This document shows positions 15,573 to 40,074 of a stretch of 41,752 nucleotides of DNA, piece after piece. Each line of letters starts with the position of its first letter. Position 1 is the stretch's first letter. The notes under the pieces are model-generated. The model saw only the letters and a program-made list of their open reading frames with translations. It was not told the origin of the DNA and did no database searches. The stretch is taken from positions 1 through 41,752 of the forward strand of contig WHTT01000057.1 in assembly GCA_009377605.1 (NCBI GenBank), written 5' to 3'. This stretch comes from Luteitalea sp. Its GTDB lineage: Bacteria > Acidobacteriota > Vicinamibacteria > Vicinamibacterales > Vicinamibacteraceae. The position numbers and the translations under genes were made by a program.

Positions 15573-15584
15573 GGCGATCTTTTC

Positions 15585-21705: not shown

Positions 21706-21818
21706 CGGGAAATGACCGCAGCAATCCAGTGCCTATTCATAGGCCATTTTGCTCTACTCTGCCAGTCGTTCCGCGACGGATGCCCCGTGAGTGGCGGCCT
21801 CAAAGCCCCGAAAAACAC

Positions 21819-21848
21819 TTCCAATGATCCCTTACTTGGTTCTACCAT
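21819..21848 (+). promoter_or_regulatory. Promoter and perfect TGGT-N3-ACCA operator ahead of the rhamnonate dehydratase-like gene
   Basis: TTCCAA (21819-21824), 18 bp and TACCAT (21843-21848) form a plausible promoter. TGGT-TCT-ACCA (21837-21847) is a perfect GntR/FadR-type palindrome. It ends in the -10 box exactly as at 21676 and 27202. The start codon is 38 bp downstream. Confidence 0.6.
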
Positions 21849-21885
21849 TACGACGATCAAACGGGACGGACCGGAAGGCAGCCAG

Positions 21886-23058
21886 ATGAAGATTACAGAG
21901 ATGCGCACCAGGGTAGTTGAATGGCGCGGGGAGCACGTCTCTCCTCAGCCGCATTTCTGCACCAATCCCATGGACCTCCTCAACCTCGATGGGGATTCGA
22001 TGGCCGGCTTCCGCTTCCACGGCTGGCTCATCGTCGAGATCTTCTCGGACGATGGTCACGTCGGCATTGGCAATGCGGCACTCGCGCCACGTGTCACGAA
22101 GCAGGTCATCGACCTCTATCTCGAGCCGCTCTTGATCGGGCAGGACCCATTCGACACCGAGCTCTTGTGGCAGCGCATGTATCGCCACACGATGGCGTTC
22201 GGTCGAAAGGGCATCGGCATGGCGGCGATCAGCGCCGTCGATATCGCCATCTGGGATTTGCTGGGGAAGGCGCTCGGGCAGCCGGTGTTTCGCCTCCTGG
22301 GAGGTCGAACCAAGAAGCGCATTCCGGTGTACGCCAGCCGCTTGTACAGCCAGCCGCTGGAACAGCTCGCGGCTGAAGCCGAGGGTTACAAGCGGGATGG
22401 CTACAGAGCGATGAAGCTCCGCTTCGGCTGGGGACCGGTGGACGGAGCCGCCGGGATGCAGAAGAACGTGGAGCTGGTGCGCACCGTACGAGACGTGATC
22501 GGCTACGACATCGACTTGATGGCGGACGCCTACATGGGCTGGACGCTCGACTATGCCTGCCGCATGCTGCCACGGCTCGAGCCCTATCAGCTACGGTGGC
22601 TGGAAGAGCCGGTCATTCCGGACGACATTGCCGGCTACGCCGCGCTGAAGGCGCTCGGCACGGTGCCCATCGCTGGCGGTGAGCACGAGTTCACGCTGTA
22701 CGGCTTCCGCCAGCTCCTGGATGCGCACGCGGTTGATTACATTCAGTTCGATACCAACCGGGTAGGCGGCATCAGCCAGGCGCGGAAGATTGCCGCGCTC
22801 GCGGAGGCCTACGCTGTGCCGGTCATCCCCCACGCCGGCCAGATGCACAATTTTCACGTGGTGATGGCCAGCTTGAACGCTCCCATGGCGGAGTTCTTTC
22901 CGGTCGTGAACGTCGAGGTGGGCAACGAGCTCTTTTGGTACATCTTCAAAGGTGAGCCGACACCGGTGAACGGCTTCATCGATCTCGACGACACCGTACC
23001 CGGCTTCGGCGTGACGATTCAGGAAGCGGCCCTCGACCGATTCGAGGTCATGGAGTAA
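21886..23058 (+). CDS. L-rhamnonate dehydratase-like enzyme, enolase superfamily
   Basis: The protein has 390 residues. ATG at 21886 is preceded by GGAAGG with 8 nt spacing; the open frame upstream of it lies over the promoter region. It has an N-terminal capping domain and a TIM barrel with Lys177 in MKLRFG, metal ligands Asp214 (ADAYMGWT), Glu240 (WLEEP) and Glu266 (GGEHEF), and His316 (PHAGQMHN). The ending MAEFFP, VEVGNELFWYIFKGEP is characteristic of the rhamnonate dehydratase group. These enzymes convert L-rhamnonate, and sometimes L-mannonate or L-lyxonate, to the 2-keto-3-deoxy acid. The gene is transcribed away from the TonB receptor, with a separate operator. Its last 40 bp overlap the 3' end of the convergent GH3 gene. 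Confidence 0.82.
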   Translation: MKITEMRTRVVEWRGEHVSPQPHFCTNPMDLLNLDGDSMAGFRFHGWLIVEIFSDDGHVGIGNAALAPRVTKQVIDLYLEPLLIGQDPFDTELLWQRMYRHTMAFGRKGIGMAAISAVDIAIWDLLGKALGQPVFRLLGGRTKKRIPVYASRLYSQPLEQLAAEAEGYKRDGYRAMKLRFGWGPVDGAAGMQKNVELVRTVRDVIGYDIDLMADAYMGWTLDYACRMLPRLEPYQLRWLEEPVIPDDIAGYAALKALGTVPIAGGEHEFTLYGFRQLLDAHAVDYIQFDTNRVGGISQARKIAALAEAYAVPVIPHAGQMHNFHVVMASLNAPMAEFFPVVNVEVGNELFWYIFKGEPTPVNGFIDLDDTVPGFGVTIQEAALDRFEVME

Positions 23059-25343
23059 GCAGAAGTGCGCGAGGCCTGTTCGCCCGCCGTCCGTTCACCA
23101 GGCGTCGTCACCTCGAACCGGCCTTTCAGGCGGATGTCCTCCGACGAGCTGCCCACCAGCACCTCGAACGCTCCCGGCTCCACGACCCACGCTTGCTTCG
23201 GTGTGTCCCAGAACGCCAGATGTTCGGCTGACACGGTGAAGCTGACGGTCTTCTTCTCGCCAGGTTGCAGCGCGAGTCGCTCGAACGCCACGAGCTGCTT
23301 GGTCGGACGTTTCACGCCGGCCTCGACGTCGTGCACATAGAGCTGAACGACCTCGTCACCGGCGCGCTGGCCGCTATTCTGCACATCCACCTGAAGCTGC
23401 ACTCGTCCGTCGCCCGGAATCCGCGTGGAGCCTAAGCTCAAGTTCGTATAGTCGAACGTGGTATAGCTGAGCCCGTGGCCGAACGCATGCTCCGGCTGGC
23501 CATCGTAGTACAAATAGGTGAATCCCTTGGTGACGTCGTACTCATCCATAGGAGGCAGCTGTTCGAAGGTGTCCCCCGAGCCCGAATTGGAGGCGGCCCT
23601 GTTGTCGTACACCGTATATGGCAGTCTGCCACCCGGGTTGTAGTCGCCGAACAACACCTCGGCAATCGCGGTGCCTCCTTCCTCACCCGCCCAGAACATG
23701 TCGAGCACTGCCGGCGCCGCGAGTGGCTCATCATCGCCTCCGCCACCGACGAGTGACACCGGGCCGCCGTTGAGCAGGACGATCACCGTCCTGGGGTTGG
23801 CATCCAAGACCCTTCGCGCGAGATCCATCTGTACCGGTGGCAGGCCCAGAAACGAGCGGTCGAGCCCTTCCCGCTCCAGCATTTCGTTGGTGCCGACGAA
23901 GAGAATGGCGACGTCCGCCTTCTTCGCCACGGCCACGGCCTCGGCCGCATTCGCCTCCGCATCTTCCGATTCCACGATGCCACTGCCGCGTGCATAGAGC
24001 ACCCGAGCGCTCGTCTCCACCGCCTGCCGAATGCCGTCGAGTGGCTTGACGAACGTCGAGTACAGCCCCGTATAGTTCGGTCCCGTCTGGGCGAAATCGG
24101 CAAAGGGGCCAATCACCGCGATGGTCTCGAGGCTGTTCCTGTCCAGCGGCAGGAAGTGGTCCTCGTTGGTCAACAGCACGATCGATTCCCGGGCCGCGCG
24201 CAGCGCGAGCTGCCGGTGCGCTGGGGAATCGATCACGTCCGGAGAAATCTTGGTGTAAGGCACCATCTCGGGCGGATCGAGCTCCCCCAACCGGAGCCTG
24301 ACCTTCAGAACCCTGCGCAAAGCCCGGTCTATGTCCTTCTCGGTCAGGAACCCTTGCTCGACGGCTTTCGGCAGCACGATCGCGTAGTCGCGATTGTCGA
24401 GGTCGCTACCCGCGAGAATCGTCTTCGCGGCGGCTTCCTCGATCGTCGTGTACTTCCTGTGCCCGGTCACCAGGCGGGGCACGGCGCCGCTATCGGGCAC
24501 CACGAACCCATCGAACTTCCACTCGCCGCGGAGGACGTCGGTCAGGAGCCACTTGTGCTCGGCGCCCGGCACATCGTTGATCGCGTTGTAGGACGACATG
24601 ATTGATTGTGCCTTCCCCTCCACGATCCCCGCCCTGAAATGAGGGAGGAAGTACTCTCTCAGCATGCGCTCGCTCACGTCGACGTCGAGCTTGATTCGAT
24701 CGCGCTCCTGATTGTTGACCGCGTAGTGCTTGAGCGTCGACGCCAGCTTCAGGTACTTCGGGTGGTCCCCCTGCATGCCCTTCACGTACGCGACAGTCAT
24801 CCGTGACACCAGGAACGGGTCTTCGCCGAACGCCTCCCAGATCCTGCCCCAGCGCGGGTCGCGGCTGATGTTGATCACCGGCGAGCGATAGACCAGGCCG
24901 TTGTGCCGTACGCGCTCCCCGCTCGCCGTCGTTGTCACGAGCTGCCCGCGCGGGTCTGGCTCCGTCGTGCCACTGACGGTGGGCCAGTAGTTGTGGACAG
25001 CCCTCCCCTCGTCGGCGATGGCGGCCGCCACCTCGTGCACCAACTGCGGATTCCAGGTCGCCGCCATGCCAATCGGCACCGGGAACATCGTCGTCGGCTT
25101 GGTCCAGACGATCCCGTGCAGGCTTTGGTTCCAGCCATTCATCACGGGAATCTTCAGGCGCTCGATGGCGGGGGCGGTCGTGCTCAGCAGCGACGTCTTC
25201 TCCTCCAGGGTCAAGCGCCGCATCAGGTCCTCGACTCGTTGGTCGATTGGCTGCGACGGGTCGAGGTAGATGGGCTGCTGACCGCTCACCACGAGCGGAG
25301 CGGTCACGATCACGATGAGAATCGCTGGCCAGAAGCGCTTCAT
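23019..25343 (-). CDS. GH3 family glycoside hydrolase (beta-glucosidase/beta-xylosidase type)
   Basis: The protein has 774 residues and is intact. A signal peptide (FWPAILIVIVTAPLVVSGQQP) is followed by the (beta/alpha)8 domain with RDPRWGRIWEAFGEDP, LKHYAVN (Lys205-His206) and the nucleophile Asp284 in VVPDSGAV. Next come the alpha/beta sandwich with GPFADFAQTGPNYTG and VLYARGSGI, and a C-terminal fibronectin-III-like domain (VDVQNSGQRAGDEVVQLYVHD). GH3 enzymes release beta-linked sugars from the non-reducing end with retention. The start is 15 bp after the GH39 stop, so they form an operon, and the enzymes may act in sequence on one oligosaccharide in the periplasm. The broken gene at 16498-18212 is a close paralogue. 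Sugar specificity cannot be read from the motifs alone. Confidence 0.9.
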   Translation of the reverse strand: MKRFWPAILIVIVTAPLVVSGQQPIYLDPSQPIDQRVEDLMRRLTLEEKTSLLSTTAPAIERLKIPVMNGWNQSLHGIVWTKPTTMFPVPIGMAATWNPQLVHEVAAAIADEGRAVHNYWPTVSGTTEPDPRGQLVTTTASGERVRHNGLVYRSPVINISRDPRWGRIWEAFGEDPFLVSRMTVAYVKGMQGDHPKYLKLASTLKHYAVNNQERDRIKLDVDVSERMLREYFLPHFRAGIVEGKAQSIMSSYNAINDVPGAEHKWLLTDVLRGEWKFDGFVVPDSGAVPRLVTGHRKYTTIEEAAAKTILAGSDLDNRDYAIVLPKAVEQGFLTEKDIDRALRRVLKVRLRLGELDPPEMVPYTKISPDVIDSPAHRQLALRAARESIVLLTNEDHFLPLDRNSLETIAVIGPFADFAQTGPNYTGLYSTFVKPLDGIRQAVETSARVLYARGSGIVESEDAEANAAEAVAVAKKADVAILFVGTNEMLEREGLDRSFLGLPPVQMDLARRVLDANPRTVIVLLNGGPVSLVGGGGDDEPLAAPAVLDMFWAGEEGGTAIAEVLFGDYNPGGRLPYTVYDNRAASNSGSGDTFEQLPPMDEYDVTKGFTYLYYDGQPEHAFGHGLSYTTFDYTNLSLGSTRIPGDGRVQLQVDVQNSGQRAGDEVVQLYVHDVEAGVKRPTKQLVAFERLALQPGEKKTVSFTVSAEHLAFWDTPKQAWVVEPGAFEVLVGSSSEDIRLKGRFEVTTPGERTAGEQASRTSAYSMTSNRSRAAS

Positions 25344-25358
25344 GGCGTCGGCAGCCTT

Positions 25359-27125
25359 TCACCACTCGATGACCAAGAGGGAGACCGCACGGCGTGGCAG
25401 TGTGAAGCGGACCGTGGCGTGTGACCGTGCAATGTCGATCGTGGACGGCCCATCCATCAACGCGAGCTGGCTCGCCTTCTCGAGCGCGGCGTACTGCGCC
25501 TGGTCCGGTTTTGCCGGCGAGCCCATGCGCTGCCACGCCGTGTAGGCGTTGCTGTGCTCGGCGTCCACACGGAAGTGGCTGAGGCGCGCCGGCTGCTCCG
25601 TCTCGGGTAGGCCGTCCATCGTCAGCTCTACTTCCGTCGCTGGCCCCGGCACGTCATCGTCATGGTAGTGCCACGCGAGGATGGTGATTCGATCATCGTC
25701 GCGGCTCGCGAGCGCGGACACATCCGGCTGTCCACGGACCCCGTTCTCGATGATCTCGTCCAACGGTACGGCGGCATCGCTGGTCGCCGCCACGCGCCGG
25801 CGGCCCATCTGACTGAACATCCGAAAGACGTTCAGGACCGGCTTGTCGACGCCGTTTGTCGCCAGCGAGCGAAAGCCAGCGAAGTACGGCTGGTCCTCGA
25901 ACTCGAAGGCCCACGTGAGGGCACCTTCGAAATTGACGTCGTAGCGGTCCGCGAGGTCGTGCTTCCGCGCAAAGCTTGCCGCCGTGTAGCTCGAGTACAT
26001 CGTCGTGTTGCGGTACGCCAGCTGCTCCCCCTGGCACGCGGCACAGCCCTCGGGATCCGACTCGCCAATCACTATCGGTGTGGACTTCAACTCTGGATAC
26101 GAGGCGATCAGGCGGAAGCCTTCGTCAATCGTGGCGAGCTGATTGGAAATCCCCATGCGGACGTGACCGTCCTCGAACGAGGGGCGTCCCTTGGCGTGGA
26201 ACGACACGAAGTCGAGCGGCGTCCCCGTACGACCGGTGGCGTGATTCTTGCCGCGCAGGACGTGCTCGATGAAGCTGCGCATGAAGTCTCCGCCGTGGCC
26301 AGCCGTGTCAGGACCGCCAACCCGCGCCGTCGGGAGCGCCCGGCGCACTCCCGCGATGGCGTAGTCGTGCAGTTTGTGGAACTCCTCCGGCGTGCCGCGC
26401 CAGTAACCGATGTTCGCCTCGTTCCACGCCTGCCAGTACCACTGCTCCACTTCCTCGCGGCCGTACTTCTCGATGACATGCTTGGTCCAGGCGTACGCGA
26501 GATCTCCCCACTTCTCGTAGTCCTTGGGCGGATAGGCCCAACCGGTGTAGATCTCGTCGTACTTGGCCTTCGGTGTCCACTTGTGCTGGTACGGCTCCGG
26601 CTGGACCGACAGATCCTTTGGCATGAAGCCAATCTGGACGTAGGGCCTGACGCCCCCCTCCAGATACGCGTCGAAGATGCGGTCGAGGATCGTCCAGTCG
26701 TAGATGGGGTTGCCTTGCGCATCCTCACGATACGCGTTGGTCGATCCCCACTTCAGCGCCGGCGTGCCGTCGCCAGAGGTCAGTAGGTTGTGCGTCCGAA
26801 AGTAGACCTGCTGCGGTGACAGCCGTCCCAGCTCGGTGAGGAGCTTCTTACCGTTCTTCATGTAGGCGTAGTTGGGCTCGTCGGCACCAAAGAACCGCCA
26901 GATGCGGCGCAGGGCGCCCAGCTCCTTGCCGGCATCCACGTGGATCGCCACCGGAAACGTGTCGGATTGGGGCGCTTGGAGCGTCCCGGGAGCTGCGGTC
27001 AGTGCGCCAGCCAAGGCGAGGAAGCTGAAACCGGCCGCGAGCGCTAGACGTGCGACGGTGTGCGCCGCCACGCCGCGACGGGTCGCCGCGGTCATGGCGG
27101 GCTGGCGATGTCTCTCGAGCATCAT
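25359..27125 (-). CDS. GH39 family glycoside hydrolase
   Basis: The protein has 588 residues. The start at 27125 (two adjacent ATG codons) has GAGG upstream; the longer open frame to 27230 lies over the promoter and is rejected. A signal region (ARLALAAGFSFLALAGAL) precedes a TIM barrel. GH39 landmarks are WYWQAWNEANIGYW, with acid/base Glu236, and TPIVIGESDPEG, with nucleophile Glu355. A C-terminal beta-sandwich follows (VELTMDGLPETEQPARLSHFRVD). GH39 contains beta-xylosidases, alpha-L-iduronidases and related exo-enzymes. With a hexuronate transporter and sugar-acid dehydratases in the same region, either activity would make sense. It is the first gene of an operon with GH3 and is preceded by a promoter whose -10 box overlaps the shared operator. 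Confidence 0.82.
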   Translation of the reverse strand: MMLERHRQPAMTAATRRGVAAHTVARLALAAGFSFLALAGALTAAPGTLQAPQSDTFPVAIHVDAGKELGALRRIWRFFGADEPNYAYMKNGKKLLTELGRLSPQQVYFRTHNLLTSGDGTPALKWGSTNAYREDAQGNPIYDWTILDRIFDAYLEGGVRPYVQIGFMPKDLSVQPEPYQHKWTPKAKYDEIYTGWAYPPKDYEKWGDLAYAWTKHVIEKYGREEVEQWYWQAWNEANIGYWRGTPEEFHKLHDYAIAGVRRALPTARVGGPDTAGHGGDFMRSFIEHVLRGKNHATGRTGTPLDFVSFHAKGRPSFEDGHVRMGISNQLATIDEGFRLIASYPELKSTPIVIGESDPEGCAACQGEQLAYRNTTMYSSYTAASFARKHDLADRYDVNFEGALTWAFEFEDQPYFAGFRSLATNGVDKPVLNVFRMFSQMGRRRVAATSDAAVPLDEIIENGVRGQPDVSALASRDDDRITILAWHYHDDDVPGPATEVELTMDGLPETEQPARLSHFRVDAEHSNAYTAWQRMGSPAKPDQAQYAALEKASQLALMDGPSTIDIARSHATVRFTLPRRAVSLLVIEW

Positions 27126-27201
27126 GGGTGTCCTCGAGTGGGTCGTGGGCGGAACTGGAGACCGGTCTCCAAGATTCCGAGATATGTTGCGCGAGGCGGG
27201 A

Positions 27202-27230
27202 ATGATACGACCAATGTGAGGTGAAGTCAA
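27202..27230 (-). promoter_or_regulatory. Promoter and operator of the GH39-GH3 operon
   Basis: On the minus strand TTGACT (27230-27225), 17 bp and TATCAT (27207-27202) form a good promoter. TGGT-CGT-ATCA (27213-27203) overlaps the -10 box. The surrounding 15-mer AATGATACGACCAAT (27201-27215, plus strand) is identical to that at 21675-21689. The leader to the start codon is about 70 nt. Confidence 0.75.
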
Positions 27231-28445: not shown

Positions 28446-29018
28446 TCACGCGAAGACACAGCGCCGGCGCGCGCTCTCCCGTAGTCGCGCGAGATATTCT
28501 TGGCGCGGGATCTCGACCGCACCGAACTGCTCCAGGTGCGATGTCACCCATTGCACGTCCAGGAGCACATAGCCGCGTGCTCGTAACCGCTCGACCAGTG
28601 CGCAGAGCACGACCTTCGAAGCATCGGTCTCCCGGTGAAACATCGATTCGCCGAAGAACGCGCCGCGGAGACTCACGCCATACAGGCCGCCGACGAGCCG
28701 ATCCCCGCGCCAGGCCTCCATCGAGTGCGCAAAGCCCAGACGATGGAGCTCGGTGTAGCTCTCGATGATCTCCTGATTGATCCAGGTTTCGTGTCGGCGC
28801 CCGCAGGCCCGCATCACCGCCTCGAAGGCCCGATTCACACCGACGTCCAGCGTGCCGTGTCGGACGACGCGCGCGAGGCGCGTCGGTACGTGAAAGGTGT
28901 CGAGCGGCAGGATTCCGCGCGGATCCGGTGAAAACCACTCAACGCCGCGGCGGGCGTCGGTGCCCATGGGAAACCAGCCGGAGGCGTAGGCCCGAAGCAG
29001 GAGGTCGGGGTCGATCAT
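28446..29018 (-). CDS. aat: Leucyl/phenylalanyl-tRNA--protein transferase
   Basis: The protein has 190 residues, short but within the family range. Typical blocks are LLLRAYASGWFPMG, VEWFSPDPRGILPL, ETWINQEIIESYTELHRLGFAHSMEAW, LVGGLYGVSLRGAFFGESMFHRETDASK and LDVQWVTSHLEQFGAVEIPR. The enzyme moves Leu or Phe from aminoacyl-tRNA to the N-terminus of proteins that begin with Arg or Lys, which marks them for ClpS/ClpAP degradation in the cytoplasm. Its ATG overlaps the TGA of the histidine kinase by 4 nt, so translation is probably coupled. It is the last gene of a minus-strand operon. Confidence 0.92.
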   Translation of the reverse strand: MIDPDLLLRAYASGWFPMGTDARRGVEWFSPDPRGILPLDTFHVPTRLARVVRHGTLDVGVNRAFEAVMRACGRRHETWINQEIIESYTELHRLGFAHSMEAWRGDRLVGGLYGVSLRGAFFGESMFHRETDASKVVLCALVERLRARGYVLLDVQWVTSHLEQFGAVEIPRQEYLARLRESARRRCVFA

Positions 29019-30013
29019 GAATCGACGCTCGTCTCCTCGCCGGCAGTCACGCTCTGATCCAAGGGCAGCCGGATCAGGAAGGTGCTGCCGTGCCCACGTC
29101 CCTCGCTCGTTGCATCGACCGATCCCTGGTGGGCCTCGACCAGATGTCGCACGATCGCGAGGCCAAGGCCGAGACCGCCTTGCGACCGTGATCGCGACGA
29201 ATCAGCCTGAGAGAACCGTTCGAACATCGCGGGCACCCGTCCTGGCTCGATGCCGTCACCGGAGTCGGTCACACGAATGATGGCCTCCTCTGCCGTGTAG
29301 CCGAGGGCGATATCGATACGTCCACCAGTGGGCGTGAACTTGATGGCATTGGTCAGCAGATTCCAGAAGACCTGTTGGAGCCGCGCAGCGTCGCCGCGCA
29401 CGCGGGCCCCGCGCTCTTCCCGGCGCACGATCAGCGTGAGGCGCTTGTTGTCGGCGGCTGGCCGCACCGTCCCGAGCGCCGCGTCGAGGCACGCCCCCAG
29501 GTCCACGGCCTCCCACGCCTGCTGGAGCCGTCCCCGCGCCATGCGGGACACGTCGAGCAGATCCTTGACGAGACGAGCCTGTGCGCGCGCGTTCTGTTCG
29601 ATGGCTTCCAGCGCGCGCGGCACCACCTCCGGCTCGACGCGGCCCGCCCGGAGCATCTGTGCCCAGGCCAAGATCGCGTTGAGCGGCGTCCGCAGCTCGT
29701 GGGAGAGCGCCGCCAAGAACTCATCCTTGGCGAGTCTCGCCGCTTCCGCCGTCGCCTGCGCGCGTTCGGCCGCCTCGTGCAGCCGTGCGCGCTCGAGCGC
29801 CTGCGCTCCGAGGTGCGCATGGGCCTGCAGCAACATGGCTTGCAGATGTGTGATCCGCTCGACCTCCGCCTGCTGCGCCCGGCGGGCTCGACCGAGCGAG
29901 CGCGCCCAAAGCACCGCGATGAGACCGACGACGAGGGTCAAGCCGAGCAGCGCCCAGGTCAGCGCCGTCTCGGATGCGACACCGGTCGATATGTTGACGC
30001 TCAGTCTTGTCAC
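29015..30013 (-). CDS. Membrane-anchored sensor histidine kinase without a partner regulator
   Basis: The protein has 332 residues with a GTG start at 30013. One transmembrane helix (about 19-37, [19 protein letters not shown]) is followed by a helical, probably coiled-coil stretch to about 95. The HisKA domain carries His105 in [16 protein letters not shown]. The HATPase domain carries the N box ([11 protein letters not shown]), G1 (DSGDGIEPG) and G2 ([10 protein letters not shown]). There is no sizeable periplasmic sensor domain, so the signal is probably internal or from the membrane. No response regulator is encoded nearby. The gene sits 29 bp after the myo-inositol oxygenase stop and overlaps aat by 4 bp. 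What links these three functions is not clear. Confidence 0.9.
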
Positions 30014-30042: not shown

Positions 30043-30870
30043 CTACCAGTGAAGTGGCTCTGGGAAGAACTCGTCGAGCAGGTCCTGATAGAACGGGGTC
30101 AAACTCTCCACGTCTGGCTTGCCATCGCCCTTCGAGTACAGATCAAAACGGTTGAACGCCTTGACCCACTTCTTCATCCGCCGATCCGTATCGGACGTGA
30201 GATAGTCGTACGCGCCTCCCTTGTGCCACGGATAGCACGAGTGGTAGCGGATCATGTAGAGCGCTTCTTCCGGGAGGCGATCCTTCATGACGTGGAAGAG
30301 GTACTCGTCGTGCCCCCACGAGAGGTGGACGTTCGACAGGCCGATCCCTTCTCGGTAGATGCCGTACTGCGTCGAGTACACAGGGTGGCGCCGGTCAGGG
30401 TTGTCTTCGAAGAGCTCAGGATAAACACACTTCTCCGAGAAGGCACAGCCAACGGGAAACGTGTCGCCCACAACGGCCCATTGGGGCTCGCCAAACAGAC
30501 ACAGAATCTTGCCGAGATCGTGAATCAGGCCGGTGACGATGAACCAGCGTGGCTGGTTGGCGCGACGGATGGCCTCGGCCGTCTGCATCGCATGCTCGAT
30601 TTGGGTGAGATCGATGTCCGGGTCGCTGTCGTCCACCAATGTATCGAGGAACTCCAACGCTTCCCAGGCGCGCATGCGCTTGCGGTTGAGCGGAAGATAC
30701 TCCGCTTTCCTGCCCAGGACGAAGTCGAGGGTCTGGTGCGCGTGGTTCAGACGATAGAATGCTCGTACCGACTCGCGCTCCTCCGCCGCATAGTTGCGAA
30801 ACTCCTCGGCCAGCTTCGGTTGATTGACTTTGTTCAGCGGTTGCGGTTCCTGCACGGCGTCCTCCGCCAT
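30043..30870 (-). CDS. Myo-inositol oxygenase
   Basis: The protein has 275 residues, close to the length of animal and plant MIOX. All six expected diiron ligands are present in order: His93 ([10 protein letters not shown]), His117-Asp118 (LIHDLGK), His187 (SWGHDEY), His210 (MIRYHS) and Asp243 (FNRFDLYSK). Other family blocks are [48 protein letters not shown] and the ending FPEPLHW. The enzyme uses O2 to open myo-inositol and form D-glucuronate in the cytoplasm. That product is the substrate of the hexuronate pathway hinted at by the transporter and mannonate-dehydratase genes 15 kb upstream. It is the first gene of an operon with a histidine kinase and aat. Bacterial MIOX is uncommon. Confidence 0.95.
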
Positions 30871-30984
30871 ATATCTGTCGACTCCTCAGCGTACTCCAAG
30901 ACGGCAGAAAAGGGGACGGGCGCCTTCTTCGGCGCGGAGCGGACGCGGCCGCCTCGGCGAGACAGCCCTACCCCGGAGGGTAGT

Positions 30985-31236: not shown

Positions 31237-31527
31237 CAAGACACGGAGTCTTCTGGCTGCCTCGCACGGCCGGCCTCACGTGGCAGGGCCCGCTCGGCAG
31301 CAATCTTAGCGACTAATGATCCCTCGAATGAGCAACCTCCGGCACGTCCCGCGCCCTGTAACCCCGGCGCGACCGGTGACACCGGACCGATTAACCCACG
31401 TGCGCGCGTCAGTGCGCCCTCCCCCGTCGACGCTCGTCGTGCGAGCCGCGGCAGTCCATTCCACCGGCCGGCGAGCGGAGCACGCCGGTGTCCGAAGCGA
31501 CCTTAGTAGGTGCGAGAGCCAGAAGTC

Positions 31528-32598
31528 ATGAGGCACACGGATCAGTCGGAACTGATTGGCATCAGCCCTTCGATGATCGAGCTCAACCGGGAGCTCCAGC
31601 ACATCGCGAGGTCTGACGCCAAGGTGCTCGTTACCGGCGAGAGCGGCGTCGGTAAGGAGCTCGTCGCACGCGCCATCCACGTGCACAGCGCGCGGGCCGC
31701 CCGGCCGTTCATCGCCATGAACTGCGCGGGATTGCCGGAGACGTTGCTCGAGTCGGAGCTGTTCGGCCACGTGAAGGGCAGCTTCACCGGCGCGTACCGC
31801 GATAAGCCGGGCAAGCTGGAATCGGCACACGAGGGCTCGATCTTCCTCGACGAGGTCGGCGAGATGACCCTCCGCATGCAGGGACTGCTCCTGCGCTTCC
31901 TCGAAACAGGCGAGATCCAGAAGGTGGGTGCCGACCGTGGCGCCCGCGTGGTGAACGTGCGCATCATCGCGGCGACCAACCGCAACCTGCAGGATCTCAT
32001 CGCGCAGGGACACTTTCGCGAAGATCTCTTCTATCGGCTCAACGTGATCCACTTCTGGGTGCCGCCGCTGCGTGAGCGAAAGGACGACATCGCGCCGCTC
32101 TTGGAGCTGTTTCTCTCGCGCTTCTCCGCGCGGAATGGCCACGCGGTTCGCGGCTTCGAGAGCGATGCGCTCACGGCGCTGGTCGACTACTCCTGGCCGG
32201 GCAACGTCCGCGAGCTCGAGAACGTCATCGAGCGCATCGTCGTGACCGGGCGGTGCGAGACGGTCAGGTTGGAAGATCTTCCGATCGAGATTCGCGCGCA
32301 GCGCGGCGTCTCTGTCCGGCCGAAGCGGGAACGCCGGCGCACTGTTGCCGACGATCTCTACAAGCGGCTGATCGAGGAGCGCGAGTCGTTCTGGACGGCG
32401 GTGTATCCCCTATACATGAATCGGGAGATTACGCGCGCCAACCTACGCGAGGTGGTGCGACGGGGCCTGGAGACGGCGCGCGGCAACTACAAGATCGTCT
32501 GCCGCCTCTTCAACATGGATCAGGGCGACTACAAGCGGTTCCTCAACTTTCTCCGGAAGCACGACTGTCAACTGCCCTTCAAGGATTATCGACAGTAA
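31528..32598 (+). CDS. Sigma-54-dependent transcriptional activator lacking a receiver domain
   Basis: The protein has 356 residues from ATG 31528; a GTG at 31510 would add six. The AAA+ domain starts at once: Walker A GESGVGKE (37-44), the sigma-54 contact loop GSFTGA (84-89), Walker B GSIFLDEVGEM (103-113), then IIAATNRNL, FREDLFYRLNV and YSWPGNVRELEN. No receiver or sensor domain precedes it, so activity must be set by amount, ligand or partner. The C-terminus lacks an obvious Fis-type helix-turn-helix. It has a helical segment (RRGLETARGNYKIVCRLFNM, then YKRFLNFLRKH) that may bind DNA. It lies 2 bp before the ATPase gene and probably drives the exopolysaccharide operon, possibly including its own sigma-54 promoter. 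Confidence 0.9.
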   Translation: MRHTDQSELIGISPSMIELNRELQHIARSDAKVLVTGESGVGKELVARAIHVHSARAARPFIAMNCAGLPETLLESELFGHVKGSFTGAYRDKPGKLESAHEGSIFLDEVGEMTLRMQGLLLRFLETGEIQKVGADRGARVVNVRIIAATNRNLQDLIAQGHFREDLFYRLNVIHFWVPPLRERKDDIAPLLELFLSRFSARNGHAVRGFESDALTALVDYSWPGNVRELENVIERIVVTGRCETVRLEDLPIEIRAQRGVSVRPKRERRRTVADDLYKRLIEERESFWTAVYPLYMNREITRANLREVVRRGLETARGNYKIVCRLFNMDQGDYKRFLNFLRKHDCQLPFKDYRQ

Positions 32599-32600
32599 GT

Positions 32601-33629
32601 ATGTATGAATCCTTTTTCGGTCTCCGGGAGCGGCCGTTCGACCTCGCGGTGAACCCCCGCTTCATCCTTCTCACGCCGCGCCATCGCGAAGCGTTGAGCA
32701 CGTTGCGCTATGGCATCTCGGCGCCCCGGGGCTTGACGCTGCTGCTCGGTGACGCCGGCACGGGCAAGACAACGCTCGTGCGCGCCGCGCTCGCCGAAGA
32801 GTCGCGTCCGGAGAACCGGACGGTGCTCCTGAGCAACCCGACGCTCACGCGTGCGGAATTCTACGAGTTCATCGCACGCGGGTTCGAGATGAGCGAGGGC
32901 GCGGCGCGATCGAAGGCACGGTTTCTCATCGAGTTTCAGCGAACCGTTCAAGAGCGGCACGCGGCCGGCGGGCTGACGACGATGATCATCGATGAGGCGC
33001 AGAGCCTGCCGGACGAGCTCCTGGAGGAGGTCCGGCTGCTGGCGAACATCGAGACGTCCACCGTCAAGCTCTTGAACCTGGTGCTGGTCGGCCAGCCCGA
33101 GCTGGCGGATCGCTTGAACCGGTCGTCGCTGAGACAGCTCAAACAACGAATCACGCTGCGCTGGCAGCTCACGCCGCTCGATTTACGCGAGACGGCGGTG
33201 TATGTGGCGAGCCGCATTCGCGTGGCGGGCGGGAACGCAGGCGAGATCTTCACGCGTGAGGCCGTCGCCAACATCTATGAGGCGTCGGGGGGGCTGCCGC
33301 GCATCATCAACGTGATTTGCGACAACGCGTTGCTGGGCGGGTTCGCCGCGCAGGTCAAGCCGATCGACCAAGAGATCGTGCGGGAGATCTGCCGCGACTT
33401 CGACATCAGGGCGCCGGAGCAGTTCGACGAGCCGGGCTCCTGGCAGGGCAATGCCTCCTCGGAGCGTGGCAACGGCCAGCCGCGTCGCGCGGTCAGCGAC
33501 GGCGCGGGGGCCGGGGCCAGAGCTATCCAGCCCGACACCGCTCTGTCGAACGAACAGCCAGCCAATGTGGAGCCTCGCGTGCCCACGTTTGGCCAAGACG
33601 TGAAGAAGCGGAAGTTCTTCTTCTTTTAG
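32601..33629 (+). CDS. ExeA/GspA-like AAA ATPase of exosortase-type exopolysaccharide loci
   Basis: The protein has 342 residues. ATG at 32601 begins the conserved MYESFFGLRERPFDLAVNPRF; the open frame reaches upstream only as a shadow of the activator gene. Walker A is GDAGTGKT (50-57), followed by Walker B TTMIIDEAQ and the sensor region VLVGQPELADRL. The winged part is SGGLPRIINVICDNALL. These ATPases are standard members of XrtA/EpsH polysaccharide clusters; their exact job is not settled, but they may energise assembly or export. The last 60 residues are low complexity and end in KKRKFFFF, an odd basic-aromatic tail. The gene follows the activator after 2 bp and precedes the export gene by 29 bp. 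Confidence 0.88.
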   Translation: MYESFFGLRERPFDLAVNPRFILLTPRHREALSTLRYGISAPRGLTLLLGDAGTGKTTLVRAALAEESRPENRTVLLSNPTLTRAEFYEFIARGFEMSEGAARSKARFLIEFQRTVQERHAAGGLTTMIIDEAQSLPDELLEEVRLLANIETSTVKLLNLVLVGQPELADRLNRSSLRQLKQRITLRWQLTPLDLRETAVYVASRIRVAGGNAGEIFTREAVANIYEASGGLPRIINVICDNALLGGFAAQVKPIDQEIVREICRDFDIRAPEQFDEPGSWQGNASSERGNGQPRRAVSDGAGAGARAIQPDTALSNEQPANVEPRVPTFGQDVKKRKFFFF

Positions 33630-33658
33630 AACGGGCCACGCCCGACTGTGGTGATGAA

Positions 33659-34339
33659 ATGAGTATCCCTGATCGTCCTCGCGTCACGGCCCTCGTGAGC
33701 GCCGTTGCGGCGCTCCTACTCTGCTCTACTGTGGCAGCGGCGGGCCAGTCGCCGACGCCGCAAGCGGGTCAACCGACCCAGCCGCAGGAGAGCCCTGCCC
33801 CGACCGAGCCGGCGGCCGGCAACGGAGACGAGGCGCCGGCGGCCGACACGACCGTGGCGCCACCGCCGGATTACGTGATTGGGGCCGAAGATGTCCTCGG
33901 CGTGGTGTTCTGGCGCGAGAAGGAGATGTCCGGCGACGTGACGGTCCGCCCGGACGGGATGATCACGCTGCCACTCCTCCAGGACGTCCAGGCGGAGGGC
34001 CTGACGCCAGACCAACTGCGCGCACAGGTTCAAGAGGCGGCAGGCAAGTACATCCAAGACCCGTCTGTCACGGTTGTGGTCCGGAAGATCAACAGCCGGC
34101 GGGTGTTCATCAACGGCGAGGTCGGGCGACCCGGTGCGTACCCGTTGACGACGCCGCTCACGGTGCTGCAGTTGGTCGCGATTGCGGGCGGCCTCTCGGA
34201 GTTCGCCGACGCCGACGACATCAAGATCATGCGGCAGGACGGTGAGATCGTGGAGTTCAACTACAAGGATGTGGCGCGTGGCCGGAACATGGAGCAGAAC
34301 ATCCGCCTCAGGCCCGGTGACACGATCATCGTACCTTGA
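33659..34339 (+). CDS. Wza-like polysaccharide export protein
   Basis: The protein has 226 residues from ATG 33659. A signal peptide (ALVSAVAALLLCSTVAAAGQS) precedes a Pro/Gln/Ala-rich linker (30-68). The Poly_export domain follows (about 69-150: DYVIGAEDVLGVVFWREKEM, VRPDGMITLPLLQDV). One SLBB domain (about 155-220) carries RVFINGEVGRPGAYPLTTP. A clear lipobox is not seen. Wza-type proteins form the outer-membrane or periplasmic channel for the finished polymer. With a single SLBB domain it is shorter than Wza and like the export proteins of exosortase-type loci. After its stop comes a 55-bp palindromic element. Confidence 0.9.
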   Translation: MSIPDRPRVTALVSAVAALLLCSTVAAAGQSPTPQAGQPTQPQESPAPTEPAAGNGDEAPAADTTVAPPPDYVIGAEDVLGVVFWREKEMSGDVTVRPDGMITLPLLQDVQAEGLTPDQLRAQVQEAAGKYIQDPSVTVVVRKINSRRVFINGEVGRPGAYPLTTPLTVLQLVAIAGGLSEFADADDIKIMRQDGEIVEFNYKDVARGRNMEQNIRLRPGDTIIVP

Positions 34340-34377
34340 GCCCGGCGCTCACTTCTGTTGCCACACCGCACGTCCAC

Positions 34378-34432
34378 GTAGCGCAGGGCTTCAGCCCTGC
34401 CTACCGCGGGCAGGCCTCAAGGCCTGCGCTAC
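34378..34432. repeat. REP-like nested palindrome
   Basis: The outer arms GTAGCGCAGG (34378-34387) and CCTGCGCTAC (34423-34432) are perfect inverted repeats. Inside are two smaller hairpins, AGGGC-TTCA-GCCCT (34385-34398) and AGGCC-TCAA-GGCCT (34412-34425). The form resembles bacterial REP/BIME elements. It lies between two co-directional operon genes. Confidence 0.85.
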
Positions 34433-34452
34433 TTGAGATTCACGAAAGTACC

Positions 34453-35835
34453 ATGCACTTCTTCTGTCGCTTTCTAATCGTTCTAATCGCATCGAGCGTG
34501 GTCGTGGCGATACCGGCGTCCGCCGCAGCTCAGATTCAGTTGCCCGAGCAGCGTGACGTCTACGGCATCTATGGCGGCTATCCTCGACCGCGGGGGGAGC
34601 GGCTGCGCCAGGAGCTCGACCTGACCGTTGGCCTGCTTGGCGGATACGACGACACGGTGCGGCCCCAGGGAACCGTGGCGCCGCCGGTGGACGTGCGCTT
34701 GCAGCAGAGTGGCTACAACGGAGCGGCCAATGCGGCGCTGCGCTATTGGCGCGGCCGCAGCGACAATTGGTTCTCGCTGCAGGGTCGAGGCTACGTGAAC
34801 GGGTACAGTGCTCTCGACATCGGAGCGAGCACCGGCGGGGAATTCAGCGGGCAGGTACACAGGACACTCGGGCGCCGGGGAGCGCTTGACCTCTCGCAAA
34901 GCGTCAGCTCGGATCCCTTCTTTACTTTCAGCTCGTTCAGTCCGCTCGAGCCCATCGTCGGTCCAGGCGGCACGCCGGATAGTAACTCCCCCGAGCGCGG
35001 ATTGTTCGAGCGGCGTTCTTGGATGACGAACTCCTCCGTTCGGTTGGGCACACGCCTGGGCCGGCGCGATTCCGCCAACGTCTCCTACAACTTTTCGCGG
35101 CGGCAGTTCGCCGGCGACGATCGCGGAGACAATCAGGCCCACCGAGCCGGTGCCAGCTATCATCGTAACTTCGGCCGCAGACACGGATTTCGCGCGAGCT
35201 ATCAATTCTCGGACAGACAGTTCTTCGATTATGACGCGCGTGAGCGGCCTGCGACCACACACACCATTGAGGGGGGACCGGAGTTCCAGAAGCGGCTTTC
35301 GCCGTCGCGCAGCATGTTCTTTTCCTTCGGCCTGGGTGGGATACACGTCGAGACGCTATCTCGGGGAGAAGAACAGCAACCCCTCACATATTGGAAGCCG
35401 TTCGGGCAGGCAGCCTTTCGGATCGACATCGCGCGGAGCTGGACCCTCGGGACAAACTATCGGCGTGGCGTCACGCTCCTCGAGGGTGTGACCAGCGAGA
35501 CCTACTTCACAGATACGGCAAACGTCACGCTCAACGGCTACCTGACGCGCCGGGTTGACGTCGGCTTCGCGGGCGGATTCTCGCAGGGTCGACCACGTCG
35601 GGGTGACGACGGTGAGGTCGATCAGCTCCGAACCTATAGCGCCTCGGCGCAGGTCCGCGTCGCGCTTACTCGACACGCCGCCATCTTCTCCCAGTACTCA
35701 TACTACCGTTACCAATTTACAGATCCGTCGTCTCCCGCCCCGGGCTTCCCCCCAACCTTCGACCGCAATGCCGTGCGGGTGGGTGTGTCGCTCTGGGTCC
35801 CGTTGGCAGGCCGGTCCCGCGGAATCCGCCAGTAA
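34453..35835 (+). CDS. Outer-membrane beta-barrel protein of the exopolysaccharide locus
   Basis: The protein has 460 residues. ATG 34453 starts a signal peptide (FLIVLIASSVVVAIPASAAAQ); the frame upstream of it runs through the palindromic element. The rest has alternating aromatic/polar strands typical of a barrel: LDLTVGLLGGYDD, NWFSLQGRGYVNGYSA, ANVSYNFSRRQFAG, HGFRASYQFSDRQFF, AAIFSQYSYYRYQF. It ends in VRVGVSLWVPLAG plus a short tail. Barrels at this position in exosortase-type clusters are thought to take part in polymer export or attachment, but the function is unproven. Next to it is the chain-length protein, 38 bp downstream. No catalytic motifs were seen. Confidence 0.78.
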   Translation: MHFFCRFLIVLIASSVVVAIPASAAAQIQLPEQRDVYGIYGGYPRPRGERLRQELDLTVGLLGGYDDTVRPQGTVAPPVDVRLQQSGYNGAANAALRYWRGRSDNWFSLQGRGYVNGYSALDIGASTGGEFSGQVHRTLGRRGALDLSQSVSSDPFFTFSSFSPLEPIVGPGGTPDSNSPERGLFERRSWMTNSSVRLGTRLGRRDSANVSYNFSRRQFAGDDRGDNQAHRAGASYHRNFGRRHGFRASYQFSDRQFFDYDARERPATTHTIEGGPEFQKRLSPSRSMFFSFGLGGIHVETLSRGEEQQPLTYWKPFGQAAFRIDIARSWTLGTNYRRGVTLLEGVTSETYFTDTANVTLNGYLTRRVDVGFAGGFSQGRPRRGDDGEVDQLRTYSASAQVRVALTRHAAIFSQYSYYRYQFTDPSSPAPGFPPTFDRNAVRVGVSLWVPLAGRSRGIRQ

Positions 35836-35873
35836 GGACCAGTAGGAAACCGTCACAGGAAACGGACGAACTC

Positions 35874-37520
35874 ATGCTCCCCGGTCGTAAATACACCCCC
35901 GAAGACGTGCTCTCGCTCGTGTGGCAGCGCCGCTGGTTGATCCTTGTTCCGCTGTTCGTCTGCAGCTTTGCCGCATTGCTCTACTCCCGGTCGAAGCCTG
36001 ACCTCTATCAATCTCAGGCGCTCATTGGCGTGATACCTCAGCGGATCCCTGATTCGTACGTGCAGTCCACCGTCACCTCGAATGTACAAGAGCGCCTCCG
36101 CAGCCTGACACAGCAAATTCTCAGCCGCACCCGTTTGGAGCGGATTATCCAGGATTTCGGCCTCTATGGGACGCTCCAGGATGTTGCCCCGATGGAAGAT
36201 GTTGTCGACTCGATGCGCAACATCATCGAGGTCCAGGCCATCGGTTCCACGAATCGCCGGCAGGCGGGTGAGACGTTCCATGTCCGCTTCACCTACCCGG
36301 ATCCGCAGCTCGCCCAGCGTGTCACCGAGCGCCTGGCCTCGCTGTTCATCGAAGAGAACTCGCAAGAGCGCGAATCAGCCGCCGAATCGACCAATCAGTT
36401 CCTCGATGCGCAGCTCTCGGACGCGCGGGCCCGGCTGGAAGCTCAGGAGAAGAAGCTCGAGCAGTTTCGCGAGCAACACGCCGGACGCCTGCCCACACAG
36501 ATGCAGTCCAACCTGCAGGCCATCAACGGCATGCACATGCAGCTGCAGTCGACGCTCCAGACACTGGAGGGCCATCGTTCCCGCAGGCTGATGCTCCAGC
36601 AGCTCTACGGCGACGCAGCGGCAGAAGAGACTACGTCGACAACCGCCGAAGAGGGTGAGACCGAAAGCGCCTCGTCTGAGGATGAGTCAGAGTCCGGCGT
36701 CACCGTGCCAGAAGGTCTGCCGGTACCCACGAGTGGGCCCGCATCGCAGCAACTGGCTGCGGCGAAAACCGCGCTCGGTCAGGCGGAGCTGCGCCTGAAG
36801 CCGGAGCACCCGGACATCGTGCGGCTGAAGCGTCTCATCGGCGATCTCGAGCGCAAGGTGGCGGAGGACGCCAAGAATCCGCCGGACCCAAATGTGCAAC
36901 CGGCGCTCACGCCAGAGGAAGAACGACGCCAAGAGCGGTTGCGTCAGACGCGCGCAGAAATGGAAGCGCTCGATCGCCAGATCGGCTTCAGGGAATCGGA
37001 GGAGGAGCGAATTCGCGGGCGGATCGCCGAGTACGAGGCTCGCCTCGAGGCGGTGCCTGGCCTCGAATCGGAGTGGATACGGCTGACCCGCGACTACGAG
37101 ACGCTGCAGCGCCAGTACAGGTCGCTGCTGCAAAAGAGCGAGAACTCGAAAGTGGCGATGAATCTGGAGCGGCGGCAGATCAGCGAGCAGTTTCGGATCA
37201 TCGATGCCGCGCGGCTGCCAACGCGCCCGGTGAGCCCCAACCGTCTTCAGATCAGCGTCGCCGGCCTCGCTGCTGGGTTGCTGCTCGGGCTGGCGCTGGT
37301 CGCCCTCTTCGAGTGGCGTGACTCCAGCTTTCGCACGGACGGAGACGTGGTCGGCGTGCTGGCGCTGCCGGTTCTCGCGGTCATTCCGCATGTCGCAACG
37401 CGTGCCGAGCGGATGCGCGAGGCGCGCCGGCGGTTCTTGGTGACCTCGGCCGCCGTCGGCGCCCTGGTGGTTGCAGGCGGCACGTTCTGGTTTCTCGAGC
37501 TGTGGAAGTTCGTGAGATAG
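35874..37520 (+). CDS. Wzz-like polysaccharide chain-length determinant
   Basis: The protein has 548 residues. The N-terminal Wzz domain carries transmembrane helix 1 (about 20-38, RWLILVPLFVCSFAALLYSR) and QSQALIGVIPQRIPDSYV. Long coiled coils lie at about 165-240 and 285-435 (ARLEAQEKKLEQFREQH, EMEALDRQIGFRESEEERI), then the GNVR-like segment and PTRPVSPNRL before transmembrane helix 2 (about 465-485). An extra helix near the end (SAAVGALVVAGGTFWFLELW) is typical of the exosortase-associated subgroup. Residues 249-272 are a Thr/Glu/Ser-rich acidic insert that may be flexible. The protein sets polymer length from the inner membrane, working with the tyrosine kinase encoded 16 bp downstream. 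Confidence 0.92.
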   Translation: MLPGRKYTPEDVLSLVWQRRWLILVPLFVCSFAALLYSRSKPDLYQSQALIGVIPQRIPDSYVQSTVTSNVQERLRSLTQQILSRTRLERIIQDFGLYGTLQDVAPMEDVVDSMRNIIEVQAIGSTNRRQAGETFHVRFTYPDPQLAQRVTERLASLFIEENSQERESAAESTNQFLDAQLSDARARLEAQEKKLEQFREQHAGRLPTQMQSNLQAINGMHMQLQSTLQTLEGHRSRRLMLQQLYGDAAAEETTSTTAEEGETESASSEDESESGVTVPEGLPVPTSGPASQQLAAAKTALGQAELRLKPEHPDIVRLKRLIGDLERKVAEDAKNPPDPNVQPALTPEEERRQERLRQTRAEMEALDRQIGFRESEEERIRGRIAEYEARLEAVPGLESEWIRLTRDYETLQRQYRSLLQKSENSKVAMNLERRQISEQFRIIDAARLPTRPVSPNRLQISVAGLAAGLLLGLALVALFEWRDSSFRTDGDVVGVLALPVLAVIPHVATRAERMREARRRFLVTSAAVGALVVAGGTFWFLELWKFVR

Positions 37521-37536
37521 CGGGAAGGATTTTTAC

Positions 37537-38550
37537 ATGGGTCGTATCGATGAAGCACTTCGCCGCGCCGGCACCGGCGGCGCGTCGACGTTGGAGCGTG
37601 AGGAAGGCGACGGTCAGACGAGCGCACCACCGACGTCGCCGTGGGTGTTCCCAGGTGACGAGCTCCTTGGTCGGGCATCGATCGACGTGCCTGCACCGAG
37701 CCACGACGACGGCACCGGTGAAGGATCTGGGCCGGGCGTCGCCGACGGCCTTGCCCCGGGCGCAGTCGAGGGGCGACGGCACGCGAGAGCGTCGGCGTCG
37801 CGAGCGGCTCGGGTTCGCCGTACTCCTCGACAATCGGGCGAAGCCGGAGAGCTTGCGGTCTTTCGCGGTTTCAATCCCAGTGTGCTCGATCGCCTGGTGG
37901 TCAACGATCACACGACGCCGGCATTGGCAGAGCAGTTCCGCAAACTGGCGGCCACGCTCCACCACGCGCAGCTCTCGGACGGCATCAAGGTCATCATGGT
38001 GACGAGCGGCATGGCCGCAGACGGCAAGACGCTGACGGCCACCAATCTCGCGCTGACCTTGAGCGAGTCGTATCGGCGGGACGTTCTGCTCATCGATGCA
38101 GATCTGCGGCGTCCTTCGCTCCACGAGATCTTTCAGGTTCCCAACATCTCTGGGCTCAACGAGGGTCTCCAGGCGGCCGCTGACGAAAAGCTCTCGACGC
38201 TGCGGGTCACCGACACGCTCACGCTGCTTCCGGCGGGCCGACCGAACGCCGATCCGATGAGCTCGTTGACCTCTGACCGTATGCGCAGCATCATCGACGA
38301 GGCATCGACCAGCTTTCATTGGGTCATCCTCGACACCCCTCCGATCGGCCTCCTGGCGGATGCCAATCTCCTCGCCGACATGGTCGATGGGGCGCTGCTC
38401 GTCGTCCTCGCCGAGCGCACTCCCTACAAGGTCGTGAGCAAAGCCGTCGACACGGTGGGCCGCGATCGCATTCTGGGTGTGGTGCTGAATGGGTCGACGA
38501 CGCGGGAGGAAACGGAGTACTACGAGCGCCGGTACAGCGCTGAGTCCTGA
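37537..38550 (+). CDS. Bacterial tyrosine autokinase (CpsD/CapB type)
   Basis: The protein has 337 residues. The start MGRIDEALRRAG is conserved in the exosortase-associated group. The kinase core begins near 110: Walker A SGMAADGKT (157-165), Walker A' VLLIDADLRRP (183-193) and Walker B WVILDTPPIGLLAD. Three tyrosines in the last ten residues (EYYERRY) would be the phosphorylated cluster. The kinase pairs with the Wzz-like protein; its phosphorylation cycle controls polymer length and export. Residues 20-105 form a long low-complexity insert, first acidic and Gly/Pro-rich, then Arg/Ala-rich (RRHARASASRAARVRR). It has no counterpart in the usual domain. After the stop comes a cluster of palindromes. 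Confidence 0.9.
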   Translation: MGRIDEALRRAGTGGASTLEREEGDGQTSAPPTSPWVFPGDELLGRASIDVPAPSHDDGTGEGSGPGVADGLAPGAVEGRRHARASASRAARVRRTPRQSGEAGELAVFRGFNPSVLDRLVVNDHTTPALAEQFRKLAATLHHAQLSDGIKVIMVTSGMAADGKTLTATNLALTLSESYRRDVLLIDADLRRPSLHEIFQVPNISGLNEGLQAAADEKLSTLRVTDTLTLLPAGRPNADPMSSLTSDRMRSIIDEASTSFHWVILDTPPIGLLADANLLADMVDGALLVVLAERTPYKVVSKAVDTVGRDRILGVVLNGSTTREETEYYERRYSAES

Positions 38551-38552
38551 GC

Positions 38553-38662
38553 GGCGGGGCTTGGCCCCCGCCCTACCGCCAATTTCGACACCTTGCGGTG
38601 GAGATGGCCCTTTCAGGGCCGCCATTGAAATGCAGAAACTTTAGGGCGGAGCTGAAGGCTCC
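38553..38662. repeat. Cluster of four palindromes between operon genes
   Basis: In order: GGCGGGGC-TTG-GCCCCCGCC (38553-38572, one bulge), ACCGC/GCGGT (38576-38599), GGCCCT-TTC-AGGGCC (38606-38620) and GGAGC-TGAAG-GCTCC (38648-38662). There is no T-run. They resemble REP-type elements and the one at 34378 in style (short perfect arms, loops of TTCA/TTG type) but not in sequence. Confidence 0.75.
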
Positions 38663-38685
38663 CCGTAACGCTTTATGCAGGCCTT

Positions 38686-40074
38686 ATGTTACTGACGCGT
38701 CTAACCCGGCGAAGCACAGCGCTCGTTGTGGTCGAGCACCTGCTGATCGTTGCCTCTGTGCTTACGGCTGCCGTGATCAGGCTCGGCATCCCGTCAGACT
38801 GGACGCTGTTCTTCCGCCACTACGGCTGGTCCGCGAGCGTCGTCGCGGCCGTGCTGCAGCTCTGCCTCTATTACTCCGACATGTACGACTGGCGCAGGCT
38901 ACGCGACCAGCGCGTCCGGCTGGTGGGTCTCGTCCAGGCCTTGGGCGCGGCGTGCATCCTCCTCGCCCTCCTCTATTACTGGCTTCCGGTTCTGGTCATT
39001 GGCCGCGGTGTCTTCATCATTGCGACTTTCTTCATTCTGGTGCTCGTCGCCGGCTGGCGGCTGCTGTTCGAGCGGCTCTCGGCGTATCTCGGCCCGAGCG
39101 AGCGCCTGTTGATCTTGGGAACGAACCCGGCGGCCGTTCAGCTCGCCCGTGAGCTGTTCCAGCGCCGCCACGAGCTCGGTGTCGAGATCGTCGGCTTCGT
39201 CGATCCCGATTCCACCCGCGTGGGCGCCCCGCTTCTGAATCCTGGAATCATCGGTACTCCCGCAGACATTCCAGATATCGTTCACGCGCGGGAGGTCGAC
39301 CGCGTTGTCGTCAGCATGGCGGACTCCCGCGGAAAGCTTCGGATGGACGATCTGCTCGACATGAAGATGAAGCGCGGTGTGACGTTCGATTATCTCGCGA
39401 CGGTCTACGAGCAGTACACGGGCAAGATCGCGCTCGAGAACCTCAGGCCGAGCTGGTTCGTCTTCTCGAGCGGCTTCAATCGGCGTCCGGTGAGTTTGAT
39501 GTGCAAGCGCGGTATGGACGTGTGCGCGGCGCTAGTCGGACTGATCGTTGCAGCTCCCCTCCTCGCTCTCGTCGCCCTCGCCGTCAAGCTGAGCTCGCCA
39601 GGGCCTGTGCTGTACCGTCAGAATCGCGTCGGACGCAGCGGTACCGTCTTCACACTGGTCAAGTTCCGCTCCATGCGCGTCGATGCTGAGGCAACCAGCG
39701 GCGCCGTCTGGGCGCAGCTCAACGACCCCCGCGTGACACCCATTGGTCGGTACCTGCGCGTCACGCGCCTCGACGAGCTTCCCCAACTCTGGAATGTGCT
39801 TCGCGGCCAGATGAGCCTCGTTGGTCCTCGTCCGGAGCGGCCGGAGTTCATTGACGAGCTGACCAAGCGCATCCCCTTCTACGGGCAGCGCCACGTCATC
39901 CGGCCAGGCCTTACGGGATGGGCGCAGGTCCGCTACACCTACGGCGCGTCGGTCCAAGACGCCATGGAGAAGCTGCAACACGACCTCTTCTACGTCAAAC
40001 ATCTCTCGATTGCCCTGGACGCCTTCATCCTGTTCGCGACGCTGAAGACGGTGCTACTCGGGCGAGGGACGTAA
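38686..40074 (+). CDS. Priming undecaprenyl-phosphate sugar phosphotransferase
   Basis: The protein has 462 residues. There are four or five N-terminal transmembrane helices (to about 125), then a nucleotide-binding-like domain (LLILGTNPAAVQLARELF, GFVDPDS). The catalytic bacterial sugar transferase domain starts near 270: KRGMDVCAALVGLIVAAPLL, SSPGPVLYRQNRVGRSG, FTLVKFRSMRVDAE, LDELPQLWNVLRGQMSLVGPRPERPEF and RPGLTGWAQVRY. The enzyme puts the first sugar phosphate on undecaprenyl phosphate in the inner membrane and so starts each repeat unit. The protein resembles the exosortase-associated subgroup. Its stop is directly followed by the ATG of the deacetylase. Confidence 0.93.
   Translation: MLLTRLTRRSTALVVVEHLLIVASVLTAAVIRLGIPSDWTLFFRHYGWSASVVAAVLQLCLYYSDMYDWRRLRDQRVRLVGLVQALGAACILLALLYYWLPVLVIGRGVFIIATFFILVLVAGWRLLFERLSAYLGPSERLLILGTNPAAVQLARELFQRRHELGVEIVGFVDPDSTRVGAPLLNPGIIGTPADIPDIVHAREVDRVVVSMADSRGKLRMDDLLDMKMKRGVTFDYLATVYEQYTGKIALENLRPSWFVFSSGFNRRPVSLMCKRGMDVCAALVGLIVAAPLLALVALAVKLSSPGPVLYRQNRVGRSGTVFTLVKFRSMRVDAEATSGAVWAQLNDPRVTPIGRYLRVTRLDELPQLWNVLRGQMSLVGPRPERPEFIDELTKRIPFYGQRHVIRPGLTGWAQVRYTYGASVQDAMEKLQHDLFYVKHLSIALDAFILFATLKTVLLGRGT

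Follow-up and report, generated by a model that had tools for sequence, protein, structure and literature searches.

This study provided evidence that the open reading frame at 30043–30870 of the window (the whole stretch of DNA analysed, 41,752 nt) encodes a genuine bacterial myo-inositol oxygenase (MIOX), whose product would most likely be broken down by a stand-alone UxaC followed by a non-UxuB fructuronate reductase, in a genome that also carries a separate, partial iol locus; we assign this reading a probability of roughly 0.78. MIOX is best known from animals and plants and uses O2 to convert inositol to glucuronate. In the mechanism proposed here, the enzyme would act as a mixed-valent diiron HD-domain oxygenase on free myo-inositol and O2, and ring cleavage would yield D-glucuronate. 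Its catabolism would most likely begin with the UxaC-type isomerase, whose gene lies elsewhere in the genome, and continue through a reductase of another family than UxuB. The catalysis, the substrate and the direction of flux are inferred here.

Identity of the MIOX protein

The gene is intact and starts with ATG, as read from the sequence, and the following features were located:

30043–30870 (−): myo-inositol oxygenase (MIOX), 275 aa, assigned by PF05153, the PDB 2huo match, the ligand check, and an AlphaFold2 model compared by Foldseek with 2huo and 2ibn
30882–30887 (−): probable ribosome-binding site GAGGAG, 11 nt ahead of the MIOX ATG, read from the sequence
30592–30594 (−): codon of ligand His93
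30520–30522 (−): codon of ligand His117
30517–30519 (−): codon of ligand Asp118
30310–30312 (−): codon of ligand His187
30241–30243 (−): codon of ligand His210
30142–30144 (−): codon of ligand Asp243

The Pfam MIOX profile PF05153 matched the protein with 366.5 bits against a cut-off of 25 (E = 9e-110) over profile positions 2–249 of 249, and the matches to mouse MIOX (PDB 2huo) and human MIOX reached E = 3e-85 and E = 7e-82, respectively, with approximately 52% identity to both. The initial annotation had described a complete MIOX with all six diiron ligands, and both statements were borne out: the four His and two Asp residues (H93, H117, D118, H187, H210 and D243) align with the mouse ligands and are invariant across 58 aligned sequences, apart from the final ligand in a single truncated row. 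In addition, K121, D136 and S211 are invariant in 58/58 rows and align with mouse Lys127, Asp142 and Ser221, which we take to be active-site residues near the bound substrate.

The AlphaFold2 model (mean pLDDT 87.6) has the fold of mouse MIOX, with Foldseek TM scores of 0.87/0.93 against 2huo, and of 0.93–0.95 by target length against the mouse and human structures (2HUO/2IBN) at an rmsd of 1.6–1.7. The next matches after the MIOX structures were TmpB and PhnZ, both remote (TM of approximately 0.5 or less), and the model of the PhnZ-type HD-domain phosphonate oxygenases (TIGR03276) did not claim the protein, at 19.6 bits versus a cut-off of 214.6. The gene is the sole MIOX in its genome. These data indicate that the MIOX gene is real and probably functional, and, as judged from the sequence and the predicted fold, it is very likely to encode a complete MIOX making D-glucuronate. 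Mammalian MIOX (EC 1.13.99.1; PDB 2HUO, 2IBN) shares with the window protein whole-length homology, fold and ligands, whereas the window protein is bacterial, has a different and disordered N-terminus, and differs in its physiological partner enzymes.

Probable routes of glucuronate and inositol in the genome

Concerning the fate of glucuronate, the genome encodes a glucuronate isomerase, UxaC, on another contig, C47 (PRK02925, 543.6 bits versus a cut-off of 387). In a set of 100 relatives that includes the own genome, UxaC was above the cut-off in 9/10 MIOX-positive genomes versus 13/90 MIOX-negative ones; the co-occurrence gave a Fisher p of 2e-6 by genome and of 0.001 by genus, statistics that are inflated by shared ancestry. 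One MIOX-positive relative (G029) lacked UxaC. A UxuB-family fructuronate reductase (PF08125) was not found in the own genome and 19 relatives, while 7/14 control genomes were positive; therefore, the second step of glucuronate use, if present, uses another enzyme family. The initial annotation expected D-glucuronate to feed the same pathway as the uronate transporter; a glucuronate fate is backed instead by UxaC and its co-occurrence with MIOX, although not by a reductase of the UxuB family.

Inositol-1-phosphate synthase is present in the genome and is nearly universal in the order, so that inositol can be of internal origin. No clear inositol transporter was found in the own genome in a search with the SSS symporter linked to MIOX elsewhere; its closest homologue there (44%) lies near apparent rhamnose-use genes, a label read from the sequences.

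The genome also encodes part of the iol route, on contig C24:

C24:54000–73000 (locus L095), 1127–10060: partial iol locus with IolD, IolB, a LacI regulator, a large TonB-type-receptor-like protein and an IolE-like protein

IolD (901 bits versus a cut-off of 715) and IolB (300 bits versus 205) exceeded their cut-offs, and IolG and IolE gave only sub-cut-off matches in the own genome. MIOX is therefore not the only inositol gene of this genome. The standard iol pathway (IolG-IolE-IolD-IolB-IolC-IolJ) shares its substrate with MIOX, but its entry is an O2-independent dehydrogenase without homology to MIOX. The initial annotation presented MIOX as a route distinct from the usual IolG pathway; this contrast is true enzymologically but incomplete, because the same genome encodes part of the iol route too. 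Within the family, genome G005, which is without MIOX, encodes IolD, IolB and an IolE-like protein; IolD above the cut-off is missing in the other MIOX-positive members, whereas the window genome has both MIOX and IolD. Across the 100 relatives, MIOX and IolB showed neither attraction nor exclusion (p = 1.0). The presence of MIOX and IolD/IolB in one genome raises a simple testable question, namely when each of them is used.

Distribution and phylogeny of bacterial MIOX

MIOX was above the cut-off in 54/396 sampled Acidobacteriota genomes, and it was also detected in contigs, many of them metagenome bins, that carry the labels Planctomycetota, Verrucomicrobiota, Chloroflexota, Pseudomonadota and Bacteroidota. 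Among named relatives, Luteitalea sp. Dino_bin50 is nearest (87% identity over MIOX), which places the window in Vicinamibacteraceae (Acidobacteriota). In the tree, the window MIOX falls among Vicinamibacterales sequences, most Bacteroidota MIOX group in a clade of their own, and mouse and human MIOX sit apart on a long branch. The tree carries a long-branch warning, and its eukaryotic rows are the mouse and human sequences. A recent transfer from animals was rejected on the basis of the separate mouse/human branch. A mobile or phage origin was likewise rejected, given the Vicinamibacterales placement, no phage matches and three non-mobilizable plasmid matches.

Bacterial MIOX genes are already known and widespread. 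Flavobacterium johnsoniae MIOX, 45% identical to the mouse enzyme, is functional in E. coli together with Udh (PMC4551912), and it works in yeast, as cited in PMC12076931. The main Bacteroidota clade is approximately 40–46% identical to the window protein but is separate from its clade, and F. johnsoniae itself is outside the rows of the tree. In Francisella TX07-7308, MIOX lies in one operon (F7308_1388-1396) with uxaC, uxuA, kdgK and kdgA, and the inositol-glucuronate-UxaC route was proposed in 2012 (PMC3479022). The same route is proposed here, but the window MIOX is unlinked to such genes: it is flanked by a histidine kinase, aat and exopolysaccharide (EPS) genes, and UxaC is on another contig. 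A precedent within the phylum is the Granulicella tundricola protein WP_013572759.1 on plasmid pACIX901 (56% identity), already annotated as "inositol oxygenase family protein", which differs in lying within a cluster of a LacI regulator, a transporter, a TonB receptor and a phosphoinositide phospholipase C (PI-PLC). Based on the Francisella operon, the F. johnsoniae enzyme and the annotated Granulicella protein, the window MIOX is a well-founded annotation of a type already described.

The contexts in other bacteria are informative about the substrate. In 26 Bacteroidota loci, an SSS symporter (PRK10484/YidK type, Na+/solute) is found near MIOX, e.g., in L019 (10898–12472) and L053 (8283–9944). 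It adjoins MIOX in many members of the main Bacteroidota clade, unlike at the window MIOX, and it is a candidate inositol transporter. Several Terriglobia-type genomes and Granulicella carry MIOX with a LacI regulator, a RhaT/GlcU-like transporter, a TonB-type receptor and a Ca2+-dependent PI-PLC (PF16670, 459 bits); in those species, these clusters suggest that the substrate is inositol, which may derive from phosphoinositides. The location of MIOX beside Na+/solute symporters or in such clusters is as expected for inositol catabolism and supports it.

A literature search on MIOX in Acidobacteria returned nothing specific, and no biochemical study of a MIOX from Acidobacteriota came to light. 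The window gene extends a well-characterised eukaryotic-type enzyme to this soil-bacterial group, and the general picture of inositol metabolism is unchanged, as bacterial MIOX and the UxaC link were already reported. MIOX is the limiting enzyme in glucarate and glucuronate biotechnology, which MIOXs of the Acidobacteriota type could serve.

As further observations on these loci, MIOX lies near the Ca2+-dependent PI-PLC in L112 (9001–18274), L126, L131 and L113. MIOX in the Acidobacteriota PI-PLC loci also occurs with a large TonB-receptor-like protein, to which L112 and L131 add a LacI regulator and a sugar transporter. In the Catenovulum plasmid of this set, MIOX and PI-PLC stand with a TonB receptor, and the loci joining MIOX and PI-PLC are possible phosphoinositide-use clusters. 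A PfkB-family kinase adjoins MIOX in several lineages (L132, 9039–10010; L130; L137; L140; L015).

Genomic neighbourhood and alternative readings

The surroundings of MIOX in the window are as follows:

29015–30013 (−): sensor histidine kinase (HisKA + HATPase_c, by Pfam), 29 nt downstream of MIOX on the same strand
28446–29018 (−): aat, leucyl/phenylalanyl-tRNA--protein transferase, overlapping the kinase by 4 nt (TIGR00667, 200 bits, above the cut-off; synteny)
31510–40938 (+): sigma54-type regulator and XrtA/PEP-CTERM-type exopolysaccharide cluster, divergent from MIOX (NCBIfam)
13163–27230 (.): block of UxuA-like, MFS transporter, GntR/FCD, TonB receptor, MR/MLE dehydratase, GH3 and GH39 genes (Pfam/NCBIfam)

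The same-genus genome (G001) keeps aat, the kinase and MIOX in the same order beside the exopolysaccharide cluster. In the window, this cluster comprises an ATPase, an export protein, an outer-membrane protein, a chain-length determinant, a tyrosine kinase, a sugar transferase and a deacetylase. The gap between MIOX and the kinase is approximately 0.5 kb in that genome versus 29 nt in the window. In other members of the family and order, MIOX sits among unrelated genes. The sensor kinase is a neighbour, not necessarily a functional partner, and aat is a housekeeping neighbour. Several members of the exopolysaccharide cluster scored slightly under the NCBIfam cut-offs.

The initial annotation placed MIOX in one region with glucuronate genes. 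This holds only loosely: they share one contig, but the MFS transporter ends approximately 14.5 kb from MIOX, and several unrelated genes intervene. One could read MIOX and the UxuA-like, MFS, GntR and GH genes as one functional uronate region, since the block does contain a UxuA-family protein, an anion-type MFS transporter and an FCD regulator. We consider this quite unlikely. Approximately 14 kb or more separates MIOX from the UxuA-like, transporter and regulator genes, and the same-genus genome has MIOX with its real neighbours and no uronate/GH block within the approximately 20 kb examined on that side of MIOX. No uronate gene was found among the MIOX neighbours in Vicinamibacterales. Moreover, the UxuA-like protein passes Pfam but is below the NCBIfam mannonate dehydratase cut-offs, and the supposed uronate transporter has only a sub-cut-off match, its best being to the D-galactonate transporter family model. 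Given the same-genus genome, the MIOX contexts of the other members and these sub-cut-off genes, the linkage is coincidental on present evidence; the block was rejected as part of the MIOX system, and regulation or operon membership of MIOX with it is not supported. Adjacency suggests another role, in which MIOX would make the glucuronate needed for exopolysaccharide precursors, analogous to the plant route from inositol to UDP-glucuronate, and MIOX is indeed divergent from the XrtA-type cluster in the window genome and in G001 alike. This arrangement is, however, limited to the genus, other family members carrying MIOX elsewhere, and such a supply role appears very unlikely.

The preferred reading, a catabolic MIOX feeding UxaC, also has to be weighed against other substrates. 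Family-level homology cannot fix the inositol isomer, and PhnZ and TmpB illustrate that substrates differ across the wider HD-oxygenase fold, so that the enzyme might act mainly on another polyol or on isomers such as chiro- or scyllo-inositol. The close identity to mouse MIOX, the conservation of the tested active-site residues and the remoteness of the model from TmpB and PhnZ make this unlikely. A broader proposal is that, in Acidobacteriota, MIOX catalyses the first step of a little-described O2-dependent system scavenging phosphoinositides or inositol, represented in Acidobacteriaceae by the clusters with Ca2+-dependent PI-PLC, TonB receptor, LacI regulator and transporter, and that the window organism retains this system in dispersed form together with the partial iol route, one or the other being used according to oxygen. 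PI-PLC-C1 (PF16670) was not found in the own genome, and we regard this proposal as conceivable but doubtful.

Within the uronate/GH block, a second GH3 gene at 16498–18212 (−) shares approximately 70% identity with an intact GH3 (23019–25343). It lacks roughly residues 125–309, with a change of frame at the junction, and is probably a deletion pseudogene or an assembly fault.
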